Below are positions 1 through 10,861 of a stretch of DNA of 64,000 bases, piece after piece; positions within the stretch are counted from its first letter, which is position 1; each line of letters begins with the position of its first letter. A model generated the notes under the pieces. That model worked only from the letters and a program-made list of their open reading frames with translations. It was not told where the DNA came from and ran no database searches. Position numbers and translations under genes: made by a program. The DNA lies in assembly GCA_003856375.1 (NCBI GenBank), contig CP034120.1, positions 124,001 to 188,000 of the forward strand, in the 5' to 3' direction. The DNA comes from Glaciecola amylolytica. GTDB taxonomy: Bacteria; Bacteroidota; Bacteroidia; Flavobacteriales_D; Crocinitomicaceae.

Positions 1-1896
1 AAAATCTCGACTATCAAACAAACTACTTTGACTCAAATTAATAACTTGATCAATAAGTTCAATTGCAAGGTTTGGCGAATAATCTATTAATTCCTTGGCC
101 TTTTGAATTAACTTTTCCGGGTAACCTTCGTAAAAATCTCTGTTGTTATTCAACAAGAGTTTGCTGGTAAGTGAAATAAAGTTCTTAGGGTCATTTATTT
201 TAAGGATCAATTCCTTTATTGTCCAATCATTTCCCATAAGAACATTGTCTTCTTGATTTTTTCTGGGGATAATATTATAAGCGTAATCAAATTCCTTCAG
301 AATAAAGTCAATACTTTCATCAATTCGTTTGGAGTCATTTATTAATCCTAGAATCCGACTATTTATTAACCGATCAGACTCTGATTTAAATATATCAATA
401 ATTCGCGGAATGATTGTAAGATCATTATCATAGTAATTTATTTCCTTAATTGATTCGATAATCTCAGACTTTATGTTTAATGGTTCAGTTTGAGATGTTA
501 GAATAACAAAGAAATGATTTAACAGTTCCACCAAATCTAAATGTTCAAACTCTTGGATTAATTCAAGTGCTGAAATACGAATTCGGAAATGAGCATTTGA
601 ATCTATTATATAATTCAAAAGAAAATTGAAGTTTTCAATACTATCTCCAAATCGTGCAAGATTGGAGATGTTGGCTTCTGAGTTATTAATCCACAACGTT
701 GTATTAACACATTCTGAAATGAAGAAGTCCTGAAAAACTTTGTTGCGAAATTTTGAAACTCTATCAAGATCTGCTTGGAAAAGTACTTCTGTGTTGTTTA
801 TAATTAGCCATTGGATCAATTGATCGTAAACTGGATCCTGTTCTGATAATAAGTTTAGAAGAAATGTAACTGTATTTGTAAGTGAAGGATGAATTTTTTC
901 AACATCATTTAATTTAATGGTCGAAAGGATTTCTTCAAAGTTCCTCTTCGAAAGGAGCTTTGCAACGAAATATTCTTGGTATTGTCTGTGAATGAATCTA
1001 AACCCTTTTGGAATTGTATTTGATTCGGTAATGAATGGATATTCTATAAATTCACTGTAATCGGCTGGTAATATAGAATAGAGATCTTCTTCTGAAGTTT
1101 GGTTTGATTGCATTAACTCATTTACTAATGCAGCTTTACTTACGTTATTTAATAGTTTGGGTTTCTCAATTATATACTCTCGTATTTTTTTTGTTTTGTG
1201 TTTTTCTATAGAATTGTCTATGATTACTTCCCAGATATCAGAATTATTTGGAGGTAGAGACCTTTGTGATAAATAATAGTTAGCTATTAAATCTACAAAA
1301 AATGGAGTTTCCAAGAAGCTTTCAATTTCTTTTAGCTCATCAAGTGTAAGGTTTAACCCATATTTATTTTTTAAAATTGAAACTGATTGAGTATGGGATA
1401 GATTTTTCAAGAATAACTTCTCAAAATTGGGTAGTGAGACTAAGTTTTTAAAATAAATATTTGTTCTACAGCTAATAACATATTTTATGTCTAATAACTC
1501 ATATTTTGCAATAAATATTGAAAATGCAGAGATAAAATCTTGTATTTCAGCGATTTCATCAAGACCATCAAGAAGAAATATTATTTTATTGAAATTCTTC
1601 CAGTCATCAATAAGTATTATATCTTCAAAGAGGTTGTTTTTTCTAAAGTTCTTTAAATTTAATCCAATTGGAATACGCCCCGTAATGGCTTTAGAGTCCC
1701 ATAAAATTTGAAATAGATTGCTTAATTCTTTGGATTTCCCAATACCTGGATTTCCAAGAAGAACAATTCTGTCATGCGAATTTGTGTATTCCTCTAGAGT
1801 TTTTCCTTTCTCAAATTCCATGAAAAATTTCGGATTTGCAGACTCGTTTTCCGAATCATAAAATCTTGGCTCATAATAATCAAGATTACTCATCAT
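1..1896 (-). CDS. NACHT-type STAND NTPase, C-terminus cut by the window edge
   Basis: An uninterrupted reading frame of 632 codons runs from ATG at 1896 off the left edge. Residues 48-55 (GNPGIGKS) are a Walker A, 108-115 (LLDGLDEI) a Walker B of the NACHT form, and SCRT at 142-145 fits the sensor-1 arginine region. FIHRQYQEYF at 301-310 matches the conserved block in the winged-helix part of NACHT proteins. The rest, from about 330 on, is helical and Leu/Ile/Asn-rich, as expected for a HEAT-like sensor. There is no N-terminal effector domain: the ATPase begins almost at once, so the effector is probably the phosphoesterase encoded upstream, whose end overlaps this start by 11 bases (translational coupling). 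NACHT proteins of bacteria are known for anti-phage sensing; that role here is inference. The sequence is visibly AT-richer than the housekeeping genes that follow. Confidence 0.85.
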   Translation of the reverse strand, partial: MMSNLDYYEPRFYDSENESANPKFFMEFEKGKTLEEYTNSHDRIVLLGNPGIGKSKELSNLFQILWDSKAITGRIPIGLNLKNFRKNNLFEDIILIDDWKNFNKIIFLLDGLDEIAEIQDFISAFSIFIAKYELLDIKYVISCRTNIYFKNLVSLPNFEKLFLKNLSHTQSVSILKNKYGLNLTLDELKEIESFLETPFFVDLIANYYLSQRSLPPNNSDIWEVIIDNSIEKHKTKKIREYIIEKPKLLNNVSKAALVNELMQSNQTSEEDLYSILPADYSEFIEYPFITESNTIPKGFRFIHRQYQEYFVAKLLSKRNFEEILSTIKLNDVEKIHPSLTNTVTFLLNLLSEQDPVYDQLIQWLIINNTEVLFQADLDRVSKFRNKVFQDFFISECVNTTLWINNSEANISNLARFGDSIENFNFLLNYIIDSNAHFRIRISALELIQEFEHLDLVELLNHFFVILTSQTEPLNIKSEIIESIKEINYYDNDLTIIPRIIDIFKSESDRLINSRILGLINDSKRIDESIDFILKEFDYAYNIIPRKNQEDNVLMGNDWTIKELILKINDPKNFISLTSKLLLNNNRDFYEGYPEKLIQKAKELIDYSPNLAIELIDQVINLSQSSLFDSRDF

Positions 1897-2968
1897 TCAA
1901 TTTGTTAAATGTGCTAAAATCCAATTCGTTAGAAGAATTGTGTCGTTGTTTTATTTTCATTAATGGAATTGGAGAAAATTTTTGGCCATGACTAGTATCA
2001 GTATCTTCATTAAAACGAATTGAGGGATAATCGTATTTTCTAAAATGTATGTTTGAGATCGAATTTGTTGTCAAGTCAAAATCAAAAATTTGATAACCTG
2101 GTTGAAAATCTGCAATGACTTCATCTGGTTTGTTTAATGCAGCTCTAACCCTAAAACCATCGCAATTGTTTAAAGTGTTTTTATAACTTACCAATTTATT
2201 TTTATGGTAGTGTCCATAAAGGAAAATATCAATTTCTTTATTGATTAAAATACGTGTAATCTCTTCTTCTTCAATAAAATTTTCTAAGGAATGATGGAAA
2301 AGACAAATGTTTAAATATGTGTTTTGTCTTTTCAGTTGGGTTAATCCATTATGTAATTGATTATAACCAAAGTAATGTTTGTCGTTTTCGCCAACAAATT
2401 TTCTTGATTTACATCTCCAAGAGTCATTTACTAATATGAAACCGATTTTTTTACTGTTGTAATCATAAGTGAATGTTGATTCATTTTCCGAAAATAAATA
2501 ATTCGAATTGTCATTATGAAAATCCCTCTCAAAGTCTTTAAAAGCTTTAATTCTTGAAGAATGTTTGAAAGAATTTAGATTATCAGATAAAAATGTATTT
2601 ATATTTTGATCATCAATGTCGCGTGAAAGATTATTTTCATCAAACCAAGAAATACTCTTCTCATCAATATCATGATTCCCAGGAATAAATATGAATTTTT
2701 TTGAATCAATTTGAAGACCTTGAGCAATCGGCAAAATGAATTCTTTTTTGAAAATTTCGTAGGGATTTTCGATGCTTGAAAACTCAGGCATTTCCTTTAA
2801 AGAATGCCCGCCCTTGTCCACTAAATCTCCAGTTATGGCAATGATGTCTATTGGTATATCTTTGTGAAAGTTAAGTAAGTCTAGAATAATTGCATCCTTG
2901 AAATTATTTCTGAACTCATTTAAATTACCTTTTGATAAGTGAATATCGGATAGGTGAACAATTCTCAT
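1886..2968 (-). CDS. Calcineurin-like metallophosphoesterase paired with a NACHT ATPase
   Basis: A 360-residue protein with the full set of two-metal phosphoesterase motifs: D8-x-H10, GDLVDKG at 47-53, GNHD at 97-100, a histidine pair at 225-226 and GHYH at 252-255. No signal peptide or membrane segment is seen, so it should act in the cytoplasm. Substrates of the superfamily include nucleic acid ends, cyclic nucleotides and phosphoproteins; the sequence does not say which. A C-terminal arm of about 80 residues follows the catalytic domain and may contact the partner. It is the first gene of a two-gene operon: its stop overlaps the start of the NACHT ATPase, which argues for a common job, possibly as effector nuclease or nucleotide phosphodiesterase (inference). 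The next gene to the right, acnB, is divergent and unrelated. Confidence 0.9.
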   Translation of the reverse strand: MRIVHLSDIHLSKGNLNEFRNNFKDAIILDLLNFHKDIPIDIIAITGDLVDKGGHSLKEMPEFSSIENPYEIFKKEFILPIAQGLQIDSKKFIFIPGNHDIDEKSISWFDENNLSRDIDDQNINTFLSDNLNSFKHSSRIKAFKDFERDFHNDNSNYLFSENESTFTYDYNSKKIGFILVNDSWRCKSRKFVGENDKHYFGYNQLHNGLTQLKRQNTYLNICLFHHSLENFIEEEEITRILINKEIDIFLYGHYHKNKLVSYKNTLNNCDGFRVRAALNKPDEVIADFQPGYQIFDFDLTTNSISNIHFRKYDYPSIRFNEDTDTSHGQKFSPIPLMKIKQRHNSSNELDFSTFNKLNDE

Positions 2969-3260
2969 TTGAGCCTAAATAGTAATTGGGTTAATCTCAT
3001 TTAAAACGCTATAAACTACGATAAAAATAATCAAAAAGTATCGAAGAAAACAAGAGTATATTCTTTAATAATCATTGGTTTAATTTAGAACCAATCTGAA
3101 TAATCTGAAACTACACTTTCTTAGCAAACTTTGTGTTTTAAATTCAATTGCTTTTGGCTAAATTCGCGCATCGAATAAATTGTTAAAAAACAACTTTCAA
3201 AACGAATGGTTTCGATTTAAATACGAATCCATTCATTAGTGAAAAGCAAGACTTCCTTTT

Positions 3261-6032
3261 ATGAATACCTATCAAGAATACATCCAAGAGATTGAAGAAA
3301 GAAAAACGCAGGGACTTCACCCAAAACCTATCGATGGTGCTGAGTTGGTGATCGAAATCGTTGAGCAAATTAAAGATTTAGATAACGCAAACAGAGAAGA
3401 TTCTCTTAAGTTCTTTATTTATAACACACTGCCGGGAACGACGAGTGCTGCCGGTGAAAAAGCGAAGTTTCTAAAAGAGATTATTCTCGGAGAATCGGTT
3501 GTAAAAGAAATTACACCAGCTTTTGCTTTTGAGTTATTGTCACACATGAAAGGTGGACCTTCAATTGGTGTTTTGCTTGATTTGGCTTTAGGAAACGATG
3601 TTTCTATTGCAACGGAAGCTGCAAATGTGTTGAAGACACAGGTTTTCCTTTATGATGCGGATACGGATCGCTTGAAGGAGGCGTTTAAAAATGGAAATGT
3701 ATTTGCCAAAGAGATTCTTGAAAGTTATGCGAAAGCTGAGTTTTTCACGAAACTTCCGGATGTGGCTGAAGAAATTAAGGTTGTTACATTTATTGCCGGT
3801 GAAGGAGATATTTCAACGGATTTACTTTCTCCGGGGAATCAGGCTCACTCACGTTCAGATCGCGAGCTTCATGGTAAGTGTATGATTACTCCTCAGGCAC
3901 AAGAGGAAATTAAAGCATTGCAGGTACAACATCCGGACAAATCTGTGATGTTGATTGCTGAAAAAGGTACGATGGGTGTAGGTTCATCCAGAATGTCGGG
4001 AGTAAATAACGTGGCACTTTGGACCGGAAAACAAGCTAGTCCGTATGTTCCATTCGTAAACTTTGCTCCGATCGTTGGAGGAACAAACGGAATTTCTCCG
4101 ATTTTCCTGACAACTGTTGATGTGACTGGAGGTATTGGTTTGGACTTGAAAAACTGGGTAAAAAAACTGGATGTAAATGGAGAGCCTGTTCGTAATGAAA
4201 ATGGTGATCCGGTTCTGGAAGAAGCATACTCGGTTGCTACGGGAACGGTGTTGACAATTAATACAAAAACGAAAAAATTATACAACGGCGATAAAGAGTT
4301 GATTGACATTTCTAAGGCGTTTACTCCTCAGAAAATGGAATTCATCAAAGCCGGTGGGTCATATGCGATTGTTTTCGGTAAAAAGATTCAAACATTCGCT
4401 GCAAAAACATTGGGAATCGATACTCCTCTGGTATATGCTCCGTCAAAAGAAATTTCTGTTGAAGGACAAGGTTTGACAGCAGTAGAAAAAATCTTCAACA
4501 GAAATGCTGTTGGAATTACGCAAGGGAAAGTATTGCACGCTGGTTCGGATGTTCGTGTAGAAGTAAACATCGTTGGTTCGCAAGATACAACCGGATTGAT
4601 GACTGCTCAGGAATTGGAATCGATGGCTGCAACAGTTATTTCACCGATCGTTGATGGTGCATACCAATCGGGTTGTCACACGGCTTCGGTTTGGGATAAA
4701 AAAGCGCAGGCAAATATTCCGAAACTAATGAAGTTCATGAACGATTTCGGTTTGATCACTGCCCGTGACCCGAAAGGTGTTTATTTGTCCATGACAGATG
4801 TAATTCACAAAGTTCTGAATGACATTACAATCGATGAGTGGGCAATCATTATTGGTGGTGACTCACACACAAGAATGTCGAAAGGTGTTGCTTTTGGTGC
4901 TGATTCAGGTACAGTTGCTCTTGCTCTTGCTACCGGAGAAGCTTCCATGCCGATTCCGGAATCAGTGAAAGTGACCTTCAAAGGAAGCATGAGCGAATAT
5001 ATGGATTTCCGTGATGTGGTTCACGCTACGCAAGCTCAGATGCTTCATACTTTTGGTGGAGAAAACGTATTCCAGGGTCGAATCATTGAGGTTCATCTGG
5101 GAACGCTTACAGCTGATCAGGCATTTACGTTTACCGACTGGACTGCGGAAATGAAGGCGAAAGCTTCTATTTGTATTTCGGAAGATGATACCTTGATCGA
5201 ATCACTGGAAATTGCGAAAAGCAGAATTCAGATCATGATTGATAAAGGAATGGACAACGAGAAACAAGTTCTTCAAGGATTGATCAATAAAGCAGATAAG
5301 CGAATCACTGAGATTAAATCGGGCGAAAAACCTGCTTTGACTCCGGATGCAAACGCGAAATACTATGCGGAAGTGGTTGTTGATTTGGATTTGATTGCTG
5401 AACCAATGATTGCTGACCCGGATGTAAACAATAAAGACGTTTCTAAACGATACACACACGATACCATCAGACCGCTTTCTTTCTACGGAGGAGAGAAAAA
5501 AGTAGATCTTGGATTTATCGGTTCGTGCATGGTTCACAAGGGCGATATGAAAATCCTTGCTCAGATGTTGAAAAACGTGGAAGCACAAAATGGGAAAGTA
5601 GAATTCAAAGCTCCGTTGGTTGTAGCTCCACCTACGTATAATATTGTAGACGAATTGAAGGCTGAAGGCGACTGGGAAGTATTGCAAAAATACTCCGGAT
5701 TCGAATTCGATGATAATGCTCCGAAAGGAGAAGCACGCACGAAGTACGAAAATATGTTGTATTTAGAGCGTCCGGGATGTAACCTATGCATGGGGAATCA
5801 GGAAAAAGCAGAAAAAGGAGATACGGTAATGGCAACTTCAACACGTTTATTCCAAGGAAGAGTCGTAGAAGATTCCGAAGGTAAAAAAGGAGAATCCTTG
5901 CTTTCATCTACACCGGTTGTTGTTCTGTCAACAATCCTGGGTAGAACTCCGACAATCGAAGAATACAAAGTAGCAGTAGAAGGTATCAATCTGACAAAAT
6001 TTGCTCCTTCTCATAAGCTGTTGGCGAATTAA
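3261..6032 (+). CDS. acnB: Aconitate hydratase B (bifunctional aconitase/2-methylisocitrate dehydratase)
   Basis: AcnB interconverts citrate and isocitrate through cis-aconitate in the TCA cycle; family members also hydrate 2-methyl-cis-aconitate. The 923 residues have the AcnB order, with a HEAT-like N-terminal domain before the swivel domain (roughly 170-400). The three 4Fe-4S ligands can be placed at C756 (GSCMVHKG) and C840 and C843 (GCNLCMGNQ). The protein is about 60 residues longer than the E. coli enzyme. The start is the only ATG near the frame's beginning, about 20 residues ahead of recognisable sequence. It is a single-gene unit ending in a strong hairpin terminator. A second, AcnA-type aconitase lies 2.6 kb downstream. 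Confidence 0.97.
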   Translation: MNTYQEYIQEIEERKTQGLHPKPIDGAELVIEIVEQIKDLDNANREDSLKFFIYNTLPGTTSAAGEKAKFLKEIILGESVVKEITPAFAFELLSHMKGGPSIGVLLDLALGNDVSIATEAANVLKTQVFLYDADTDRLKEAFKNGNVFAKEILESYAKAEFFTKLPDVAEEIKVVTFIAGEGDISTDLLSPGNQAHSRSDRELHGKCMITPQAQEEIKALQVQHPDKSVMLIAEKGTMGVGSSRMSGVNNVALWTGKQASPYVPFVNFAPIVGGTNGISPIFLTTVDVTGGIGLDLKNWVKKLDVNGEPVRNENGDPVLEEAYSVATGTVLTINTKTKKLYNGDKELIDISKAFTPQKMEFIKAGGSYAIVFGKKIQTFAAKTLGIDTPLVYAPSKEISVEGQGLTAVEKIFNRNAVGITQGKVLHAGSDVRVEVNIVGSQDTTGLMTAQELESMAATVISPIVDGAYQSGCHTASVWDKKAQANIPKLMKFMNDFGLITARDPKGVYLSMTDVIHKVLNDITIDEWAIIIGGDSHTRMSKGVAFGADSGTVALALATGEASMPIPESVKVTFKGSMSEYMDFRDVVHATQAQMLHTFGGENVFQGRIIEVHLGTLTADQAFTFTDWTAEMKAKASICISEDDTLIESLEIAKSRIQIMIDKGMDNEKQVLQGLINKADKRITEIKSGEKPALTPDANAKYYAEVVVDLDLIAEPMIADPDVNNKDVSKRYTHDTIRPLSFYGGEKKVDLGFIGSCMVHKGDMKILAQMLKNVEAQNGKVEFKAPLVVAPPTYNIVDELKAEGDWEVLQKYSGFEFDDNAPKGEARTKYENMLYLERPGCNLCMGNQEKAEKGDTVMATSTRLFQGRVVEDSEGKKGESLLSSTPVVVLSTILGRTPTIEEYKVAVEGINLTKFAPSHKLLAN

Positions 6033-8593: not shown

Positions 8594-10861
8594 ATGGCTG
8601 TTTTCGATTTAGATATGATTAAGGCAGTTTATGAGAAATATCCTTCTCGTATCGATGCTGCCCGCAAAGTGTTAAACAAACCACTTACCTTGACGGAAAA
8701 AATTCTGTATGCCCATCTTTGGGATGGTGTTGCTACTCAAACATATGAAAGAGGAAAAGCGTATGTGGATTTTGCTCCGGACCGTGTAACGATGCAGGAT
8801 GCAACGGCACAAATGGCTTTATTGCAATTTATGCAGGCAGGGAAACCGAAAGTTGCTGTTCCTTCAACGGTGCATTGCGACCATTTAATTCAGGCAAAAG
8901 TGGGCGCTGATGCGGATTTGCAGCGTTCATTAAATGAAAATAATGAGGTGTTCAACTTTTTGTCCTCAATCTCTAATAAATACGGGATCGGTTTCTGGAA
9001 ACCGGGAGCGGGAATCATTCACCAGGTGATGCTGGAGAATTATGCTTTTCCGGGAGGAATGATGATCGGAACGGATTCACATACTGTAAATGGAGGTGGA
9101 TTGGGAATGATCGCTATTGGTGTTGGTGGTGCCGACGCAGTGGATGTTATGGCAGGAATGGCCTGGGAGTTGAAATTCCCGAAACTGATCGGAGTTAAAC
9201 TAACAGGAAAATTGAACGGATGGACTTCTTCCAAAGATGTGATCCTGAAAGTTGCGGATATCCTTACGGTAAAAGGTGGAACAGGGGCAGTTGTTGAATA
9301 CTTCGGAGACGGGGCAATTTCGCTTTCTGCAACAGGAAAAGGAACAATCTGTAACATGGGTGCTGAAATCGGAGCTACGACTTCAACGTTCGGTTATGAC
9401 GATTCCATGCGCCGCTACTTAACGGCAACGGGCCGGGCAGAAGTAGTTGCTTTGGCTGATACGATTGCAGAGCATTTAACAGGTGATGCAGAAGTATATG
9501 CAAATCCGGAAAAGTATTTTGACGAGTTGATCGAAATCGATTTAAATACTTTGGAACCACATATCAACGGACCATTTACTCCGGATCGCGGAACACCGGT
9601 TTCAAAAATGAAAGCGGAAGCAATGAGCAACGGATGGCCGATGAAAATAGAGTGGGGTCTGATCGGATCTTGTACAAACTCCTCTTATGAAGATATGTCG
9701 CGTGCAGCTTCTATTGTTGAGCAGGCTGTGAAACACGGAATCACTCCAAAAGCAGAATTCGGAATCAATCCGGGATCTGAGCAGGTTCGCTACACGATTG
9801 AACGTGACGGAATCATTGCAACTTTCGAGAAAATGGGAACGAAAGTGTTCACCAATGCTTGCGGGCCTTGTATTGGACAATGGGATCGTGAAGGAGCTGA
9901 CAAGCAGGAAAAAAATACGATCATCCATTCATTCAACCGGAATTTCTCCAAACGAGCAGATGGTAATCCCAATACACATGCATTCGTAACTTCTCCCGAA
10001 ATGGTTGCTGCTTTGGCAATCTCCGGAGATTTAGGATTCAATCCGTTAACAGATACGCTGACGAATGATAAAGGAGAACAAGTGAAATTGTTACCTCCTC
10101 ATGGTGATGAGCTTCCTACAAAAGGATTTGATGTGGAAGATCCGGGATATCAGGCTCCGGCTGAAGACGGTTCAGGTGTTCAGGTAATCGTTAAGCCTGA
10201 TTCTACACGCTTGCAGTTGTTGGAATCTTTCCCTGCATGGGACGGAAACAACATTACAGGTGCGAAATTGTTGATCAAGGCAAAAGGAAAATGTACTACC
10301 GACCACATTTCAATGGCTGGTCCGTGGCTGCGTTACCGTGGTCACTTAGACAACATTTCGAATAATATGTTGATCGGTGCTGAAAATGCCTATAATGGGA
10401 AAGCAAATGAAGTCATGAATCAATTGACAGGTTCAATAGGTGAAGTGCCTGCAGTGCAGCGTGCATACAAAGCAGCCGGAATTCCGTCAATTGTTGTCGG
10501 AGATCAAAACTACGGTGAAGGTTCTTCCCGTGAGCATGCTGCAATGGAGCCGCGTCATTTGGGAGTTCGTGCGGTGATCGTGAAATCATTTGCGCGTATC
10601 CACGAAACAAACCTGAAGAAACAAGGAATGTTGGGATTGACTTTCTCTAACGAAGCAGATTATGATAAGATCAAAGAAGACGATACTTTCAACTTCATTG
10701 ATTTGGTTGATTTCGCTCCGGGAAAACAGTTGACTTTGGAAATCGTTCATGCAGATGGTTCGAAAGAAAACATCAAATTGAATCATACTTATAATGATCA
10801 ACAGATTGAGTGGTTTAAAGCAGGATCTGCATTAAATCTCATCAAGCTGCAAAATAACTAA
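8594..10861 (+). CDS. acnA: Aconitate hydratase A, mitochondrial-like
   Basis: 755 residues of the aconitase/IRP superfamily, closer in length and motifs to the mitochondrial-type enzyme than to the roughly 890-residue bacterial AcnA. The cluster ligands are C360 ([10 protein letters not shown]), C423 and C426 (ACGPCIGQW). The substrate-binding arginine region and the swivel domain ([18 protein letters not shown] split around residues 630-650) are intact. It catalyses the same citrate-isocitrate step as the AcnB encoded upstream, so the organism carries two unrelated-order aconitases close together. It is a single-gene unit with its own terminator. The gene symbol denotes the family; some annotators would simply write acn. 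Confidence 0.96.

Follow-up and report, generated by a model that had tools for sequence, protein, structure and literature searches.

Bacterial NACHT (bNACHT) proteins are usually single chains of tripartite plan, with an N-terminal effector, a central NACHT and a C-terminal region, and those of clade 14 have no recognised effector yet protect, according to the accessible part of the source (PMC12169576). Calcineurin-type effectors recur in STAND and GTPase systems, with a substrate that is only predicted in the available portions of the two studies: the calcineurin phosphoesterase is the most common GAP1-N1 effector and a predicted nucleotidyl phosphodiesterase (Kaur 2020, PMC7159879), and calcineurin is among the domains that displace one another in front of STAND ATPases (Kaur 2021). 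Fusions of a metallophosphoesterase (MPE) to a STAND ATPase are already catalogued as the PADLOC candidate PDC-S60 (PDLC05051) and DS8 (NF053861, the NCBIfam 'anti-phage protein'). Here we analyse a window of 64,000 nucleotides (G000:C1:124001-188000) from a genome consisting of a single contig of 4,606,342 bases, in which an MPE gene overlaps the gene of a NACHT protein with a long helical solenoid. This pair is a split variant of the catalogued fusions and probably constitutes a horizontally acquired, two-piece NLR-like anti-phage system whose effector acts in trans. The single-chain plan of the usual bacterial NLR-like proteins makes sensing and killing hard to separate; with the split pair, its natural fusion and what appears to be a same-site swap, one can ask which part recognises the phage, how a NACHT assembly activates an enzyme and whether effectors are interchangeable. 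With two genes in 4.7 kb, the pair also offers a compact system for learning what calcineurin-type conflict effectors cleave.

Comparison with described systems

The window MPE aligns with the N-terminal third of PDC-S60 (2.2e-31; positions 1-320 of the 1027 in the profile). In PDC-S60 and DS8, however, the MPE and the ATPase form one chain, whereas in the window the MPE has a gene of its own and the neighbouring ATPase is a NACHT protein that bears a long solenoid; the window NACHT protein had no PADLOC profile match at 0.01, and neither window protein matched DS8 at 0.1. An 869-amino-acid fusion from Klebsiella grimontii pNY3A matches PDC-S60 at 1.2e-120 and DS8 at 4.6e-56, the latter below the model cut-off, and the fused MPE-STAND ATPases of L024, L028 and L147 match nSTAND_NTPase4 (L024 and L147 just under the cut-off). 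DS9_1 (NF053862, 'anti-phage phosphoesterase') is matched through its metallophosphoesterase domain (E 4e-12), but with a score of 45.7 against a cut-off of 420 and a match that begins at profile position 195 of 486, the MPE is not a member. YydB of the YydB-YydD complex (PDB 9a6c) is a structural match of the MPE, but its partner YydD is not known to be a NACHT protein.

Like bNACHT proteins, the window protein has a central NACHT and a C-terminal helical region, and like those of clade 14, as the accessible part of that paper describes them, it has no recognised effector; unlike the usual plan, the presumed effector is encoded by a second gene. MPE relatives lead GASH operons, that of Agrobacterium bearing an adaptor domain (GAAD), whereas the window locus has no GTPase or GASH gene; with rpsF-rpsR-rplI and acnB as its neighbours, membership of a GASH system was ruled out. 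The one-chain NACHT proteins of Bacteroidota (L036-L052, L005 and L006; about 1400 amino acids) share the NACHT-plus-solenoid plan but, unlike the window pair, have at least 200 residues before the P-loop and no MPE partner. L005 matches EruA, an NCBIfam antiphage NACHT, at 5.3e-10, far below the cut-off of 1000, and the window NACHT had no EruA match at 0.1. Among the papers listed by our literature search, which missed most subscription journals, none describes a standalone MPE gene partnered with a NACHT gene, none deals with DS8 or DS9 and none names YydB or YydD.

An MPE gene overlaps a NACHT gene with no domain ahead of its P-loop

The pair and its right flank lie at the left edge of the window, as follows.

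1..1896, minus strand: NACHT-solenoid protein, residues 1-632 of 1210; the gene runs on left of the window to G000:C1:122264
937..1896, minus strand: NACHT module, about residues 1-320, from its motifs and structural match to NOD2, NLRP3 and NLRC4
1..936, minus strand: first part of the ARM/HEAT-like solenoid, which is nearly all-helical and extends from about residue 320 to the C-terminus, from predicted secondary structure and armadillo/karyopherin matches; presumed sensor
1886..2968, minus strand: MPE, a calcineurin-like metallophosphoesterase of 360 amino acids, from open reading frame, Pfam, predicted fold and alignment; presumed effector
1886..1896, minus strand: 11 bases shared by the 3' end of the MPE gene and the 5' end of the NACHT gene, from the reading frames
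1889..2005, minus strand: MPE C-terminal tail, residues 322-360, from the predicted model and alignment; possible docking peptide
3080..3260, no strand assigned: right flank common to congeners, the acnB upstream region, from comparison with congener sites

Both reading frames are intact, the NACHT frame being completed by the sequence left of the window (1210 amino acids), and a reading of the pair as a decayed fragment was thereby ruled out. On the left of the NACHT gene lie rpsF, rpsR and rplI on the same strand, and on the right of the MPE gene lies acnB, divergently oriented; these names were assigned by recognising the sequences of the genes. A first-pass annotation of the window had proposed a complete two-metal phosphoesterase overlapping, by 11 bases, an ATPase without an effector domain, in an AT-rich region. 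All of these features were recovered, and the catalytic residues that it named (H99 and D48 of the MPE, K54 of the NACHT) were located as stated. It had also expected the sequence left of the window to complete the ATPase and to reveal its sensor and further operon genes: the ATPase was completed and the solenoid became visible, but no third operon gene was seen between rpsF and acnB beside the two.

The NACHT protein carries the Walker A motif GNPGIGKSK from residue 48, with K54 as the Walker A lysine, the Walker B motif LLDGLDE and an SCRTN motif. Its Pfam NACHT score (20.4 bits for the in-window part, 19.5 for the whole protein) is below the cut-off of 26.7, above which some relatives score (L037 34.6, L140 30.1, L006 26.9), and the NACHT profile had no sequence match among solved structures at 0.1. 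The predicted fold (residues 1-1200; pLDDT 80, pTM 0.62) matches NOD2, NLRP1, NLRP3 and NLRC4, so that the idea that a low Pfam score means that the protein is not a NACHT was dropped; the earlier assignment is supported by the predicted fold, though not by the Pfam score. The 50 structural matches listed for the model are eukaryotic NLRs and solenoid proteins, with no bacterial Avs or bNACHT protein among them, which proves nothing. From about residue 320 the protein is nearly all-helical, with armadillo and karyopherin structural matches, and this modelled solenoid is presumed to be the sensor region. Since no domain precedes the P-loop at residue 48, the protein is a split variant and not a standard bacterial NACHT member.

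The phosphoesterase retains its two-metal centre

The MPE scores 56.8 bits against Pfam Metallophos (cut-off 21.5). D8, H10, D48, N98, H99, H225, H226 and H255 are invariant in all eight paired or fused MPEs, the window's included, and H253, present in the window MPE, is D in one of the eight (Chryseobacterium L034). From their known roles in the superfamily, we take D8, H10, D48, N98, H99, H225, H253 and H255 to be metal ligands; in L034 the usual GHxH reads GDQH, which alters a metal-ligand position. Outside the standard ligands, residues 181-186 (NDSWRC) are invariant in the six aligned split MPEs, and N181 is invariant in all 12 aligned sequences; the motif may be a substrate contact. The tail (residues 322-360) is modelled mostly at low confidence with a short helix at its end and contains a loosely recurring L-x-x-x-x-F/Y-like motif, judged by eye; it is a possible docking peptide for the NACHT.

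Structure comparison places the predicted MPE fold close to YydB, SMPDL3A/3B and Rv0805, and a CMP complex is among its matches. SMPDL3A/3B and Rv0805 act on nucleotides. The best sequence match of the MPE profile in the PDB is SbcD (8.5e-7, over the first 54 positions only), and a search with the single MPE sequence returned one weak match (0.7). The SbcD match would favour an immune or abortive system directed mainly against plasmids or other mobile DNA, with the MPE as a DNA-degrading nuclease; by structure, however, Mre11/SbcD rank below YydB, SMPDL3 and Rv0805, and we regard such a target as very unlikely. For the activity itself, a nuclease and a nucleotide or cyclic-nucleotide phosphodiesterase seem to us equally plausible, each at slightly less than an even chance, and any other activity is improbable.

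The pair is conserved and occurs as a natural fusion

A single-sequence NACHT search of genome contigs for close relatives returned nothing, but a profile search reached the pairs. A profile of four NACHT relatives was run against GTDB species genomes, and the best 80 of at least 128 tblastn-passing candidate loci were searched for an MPE with up to 8 kb on either side. In total, the split pair is present in six further Bacteroidota genomes (L031-L035 and L146) and a single-chain version in one (L145), bearing out the conserved pairing that the first-pass annotation had made one test of its proposal; because the pair is conserved, chance co-location is excluded.

Among the 80 NACHT loci, the window MPE finds a homologue in five, at 44-53% identity (Flavobacterium L031, Kordia L032, a Flavobacteriaceae metagenome-assembled genome L033, Chryseobacterium L034 and Lacinutrix L035), and none in the other 75. 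All five MPEs lie directly upstream of the NACHT gene, with spacings from a 4-base overlap to a 2-base gap. Apart from these five, none of the 80 was found with the P-loop at most 80 residues from the start codon, one locus being unplaced (in this survey L089 gave no P-loop, L042, L048, L050, L051 and L052 were placed via a looser pattern, and L056 is truncated at the 5' end). Other MPE queries added a sixth locus, L055, whose MPE lies about 2.9 kb off and is encoded on the opposite strand. The NACHT gene of L033 (7995-11578) is split into three frames beside an intact MPE, possibly through assembly error or decay.

At 1e-25, the window MPE matches four of the 395 genomes of the class: its own, G569, G619 and G661. 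G569 (L146) holds the split pair, and in G619 (L145) the MPE (45.5% identity) and the NACHT (28.7% over residues 5-1210) form one frame of 1564 amino acids. In G661 (L147) the MPE is fused to a different STAND ATPase (Metallophos 69.8 bits; nSTAND_NTPase4 26.5 against a cut-off of 27), and at L014 an MPE and a NACHT (53 bits) again share one chain.

The MPE and NACHT distances correlate across the eight pairs (r 0.73, Mantel p 0.003), as co-inheritance would give, although shared ancestry alone can suffice. In a maximum likelihood tree of 29 NACHT regions, in which L034 and several others sit on long branches, the eight NACHTs linked to an MPE cluster together (91/98; recovered in 92% of 200 bootstrap trees). 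Sister to this group (99/98) are L037 and G402, whose fused N-termini are unassigned, and the Mrr-like-fused NACHTs come next.

The MPE probably takes the place of an N-terminal module

Besides the five loci with an MPE, 17 of the 80 (L036-L052) were examined closely. Their NACHT proteins, 1377-1456 amino acids long, have no MPE partner, and 228 residues or more precede the P-loop. Peptidase_C14 (caspase) is above the cut-off in L043, L047 and L050 (1.2e-20 to 8e-18); weak matches below the cut-off are Mrr_cat in L036 (0.0015) and L044 (0.0066) and DUF4062 in L045 (0.00042), L049 (0.0015) and also L006 (0.0013). At 0.01, Pfam gave no match for L038, L039 and the N-terminal piece of L048, and L005 had no DUF4062 match; by eye, L040 and L046 were labelled DUF4062-like and the rest helical. 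N-terminal modules have been swapped among these NACHT relatives; the five label groups need 5 changes on the tree against 17 after shuffling. At L037:3689-7381, a type IIG restriction-methyltransferase gene (3.6e-240) ends one base before the start of the sister-clade NACHT gene, in an apparent operon.

These modules bear on the opposite arrangement, raised in the first-pass annotation, in which the MPE switches the ATPase off. As such an off-switch, the MPE would keep the NACHT from being activated by a nucleotide signal, which it breaks down, or by a target, which it dephosphorylates; in such a guard arrangement, a phage that inhibits the MPE or raises the signal would trigger the response. 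Seven of the eight paired loci, that of the window among them, encode the MPE as a protein of its own, and the resemblance of its predicted fold to the nucleotide-acting SMPDL3A/3B and Rv0805, with the CMP complex listed, would suit the removal of a signal. The MPE-linked NACHT clade has no recognised effector, which is likewise true of the protective clade 14 bNACHT proteins in the accessible part of PMC12169576. On the other hand, the MPE is fused at the effector position of the NACHT in L145 and of other STAND ATPases, and relatives carry nuclease-like or caspase modules there; an inhibitor is not expected to replace killers one for one, and the off-switch does not explain why an MPE stands where homologues carry such domains. 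We therefore consider it unlikely. The proposal that the separate phosphoesterase is an effector in trans is strengthened by the module swapping and by the L145 fusion.

The cassette occupies an insertion slot between rpsF and acnB

The cassette of 4705 bases has a GC content of 29.3%, against 39.7% for the window, and its boundaries lie at about G000:C1:122222 (left, outside the window) and about window position 3080 (right). The lowest-GC of 159 stretches of 4.7 kb each, taken across 84 kb, overlap it. The genus sample comprised 14 genomes, with an rpsF match in 13, and regions were compared from 12 besides the window's own. In G406, G400 and G404 (L132, L134 and L135) the site is nearly empty, with an rpsF-acnB distance of 317-353 bases, and in G406 the matching flanks are about 135 bases apart, compared with about 4.86 kb in the window genome. 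Seven of the eight compared loci have the same left boundary (end of the left flank at L003 2217-2226). Different small genes occupy the site in several further congeners, and in some acnB is not next to rpsF within the stretch compared. By these sequence comparisons, the rpsF-acnB gap is an insertion slot in the genus, with cargo that differs by species.

A search of the 13 other genus genomes revealed no intact pair. In G402, one contig end holds rpsF and the C-terminal 168 residues of a NACHT protein that shares 69% identity with that of the window. A second contig end holds acnB and the N-terminal part of a NACHT protein, in which about 230 residues precede the P-loop and the NACHT is 38-39% identical. 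The two ends appear to be one NACHT gene at the same site with another N-terminal module, across an unsequenced gap. G404 contains a 263-amino-acid MPE fragment (L112:5720-6511; 42-43% identity over 231 residues) that follows a type I restriction gene at a distance of 25 bases; this genome gave no NACHT match, and no NACHT remnant was recognised behind the fragment. In G407 (L127), the acnB upstream and 5'-end sequence is present twice (3725-3905 and 10007-10262 in reverse-oriented coordinates), with about 6.3 kb between the copies, a layout that looks like repeated capture of cargo, each time together with a right-boundary copy.

The location between ribosomal-protein and aconitase genes could instead point to a housekeeping or regulatory pair whose defence neighbours elsewhere are coincidental; STAND proteins also act as transcription regulators, and four related loci have no defence neighbour among their nearest genes. 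The sporadic presence of the pair, the near-empty site in congeners and the GC content far below that of the surroundings argue against such a role, as do the caspase and nuclease-like modules of relatives and the lack of a DNA-binding domain among the Pfam matches of the whole NACHT protein at 0.01. We hold this explanation to be improbable.

Defence genes near related loci

The first-pass annotation had proposed a defence-island context as a check, and such a context was found at some loci and not at others. Of the three outcomes by which it would have given up a defence role (homologous pairs not conserved, purely metabolic surroundings, no NACHT profile match), none arose outright, and its main interpretation is supported. 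PADLOC was run on 10 neighbours picked by eye as defence-like from L031, L032, L034 and L112, which are selected examples and not rates; two of the 10 had no match and one a weak match. In Flavobacterium L031, GajA (4e-212) and GajB (3e-215) of Gabija start 4.3 kb after the NACHT gene. Chryseobacterium L034 has a class II Argonaute (pAgo_II 1e-266) 0.2 kb after the NACHT gene, with an associated gene (3e-126), Kordia L032 a SIR2-like gene (1.6e-12; Pfam SIR2_2 1.7e-6) 3.5 kb away on the other strand, and L112 (G404) type I specificity and restriction subunits. Of the 16 genes closest to the pairs or fusion at L033, L035, L145 and L146 (two per side), 15 had no PADLOC match; the sole match was DrmC (1.9e-28), to an 88-amino-acid L033 protein that in our judgement reads as an insertion-sequence transposase. 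Seven hand-picked neighbours of the fused relatives L037, L038, L048 and L052 all match restriction or Lamassu (LmuB) models.

A probable split NLR-like system with a separate effector

We infer phage sensing, oligomerisation, direct contact, MPE activation, substrate and outcome as follows. The 1210-amino-acid protein would be a sensor-switch whose helical solenoid recognises an infection cue, whereupon the NACHT ATPase would oligomerise, as NLRs do. The MPE, probably made from the same message, would be the effector, held by or recruited to the NACHT N-terminus, where it would occupy the place at which relatives carry a same-chain module. Assembly would switch on its two-metal centre, phosphodiester bonds of a nucleic acid or nucleotide would be hydrolysed, and phage growth would be stopped, perhaps through shutdown of the infected cell. 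A split NLR accounts by one idea for the missing N-terminus, for the overlapping genes and for the fusion, as well as for the swap and a part of the neighbours.

In a more specific version, the NACHT oligomer would recruit the free-standing MPE as a plug-in effector via a short C-terminal motif and activate it by assembly, a plan similar to that of inflammasomes and the apoptosome in animals, to which caspases are recruited as separate proteins. In the same slot, the sister clade has a fused module and one lineage has the MPE itself fused. We give this version not quite an even chance. If it is true, the slot and the motif would together be a transferable effector socket.

Several observations weigh against a split anti-phage system. 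The MPE fold does not tell a nuclease from a nucleotide hydrolase or phosphatase. The pair is uncommon, being found in its own genome, G569 and G619 among the 395 genomes of the class, and the support of the MPE-linked clade (91/98) is below the star threshold of the tree tool; since the MPE-linked NACHTs are one clade, the five-of-five count does not represent five independent events. The nearest genes at four of seven related loci (L033, L035, L145 and L146) have no credible defence match, the positive defence neighbours were chosen by eye and have no background rate, and the window's own site is among housekeeping genes and is not a defence island. Plasmid records gave distant MPE and NACHT matches but no pair, phage records, searched for the MPE and not for the NACHT, gave no match, and viral contigs gave none by MPE sequence, with one distant MPE (27%) and two distant NACHTs in profile scans.

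MPE relatives in other genomes and plasmids

At 1e-8, 13 of 395 genomes from the phylum contain homologues of the window MPE: the window genome itself and 12 that belong to one genus (frames of 594-1406 amino acids), among which is the MPE-NACHT chain L014. No MPE match was found in the genomes of L005 and L006. Plasmid relatives of the MPE are fused in front of STAND ATPases in Klebsiella grimontii (L024) and Sphingomonas (L028) and directly precede a GASH gene on the Agrobacterium and Simplicispira plasmids (L026 and L027). The model PDLC00736 ('Effector, Endonuclease') matches 7 of 148 genomes, the window's own included, and one of 14 controls (Bacillus subtilis).

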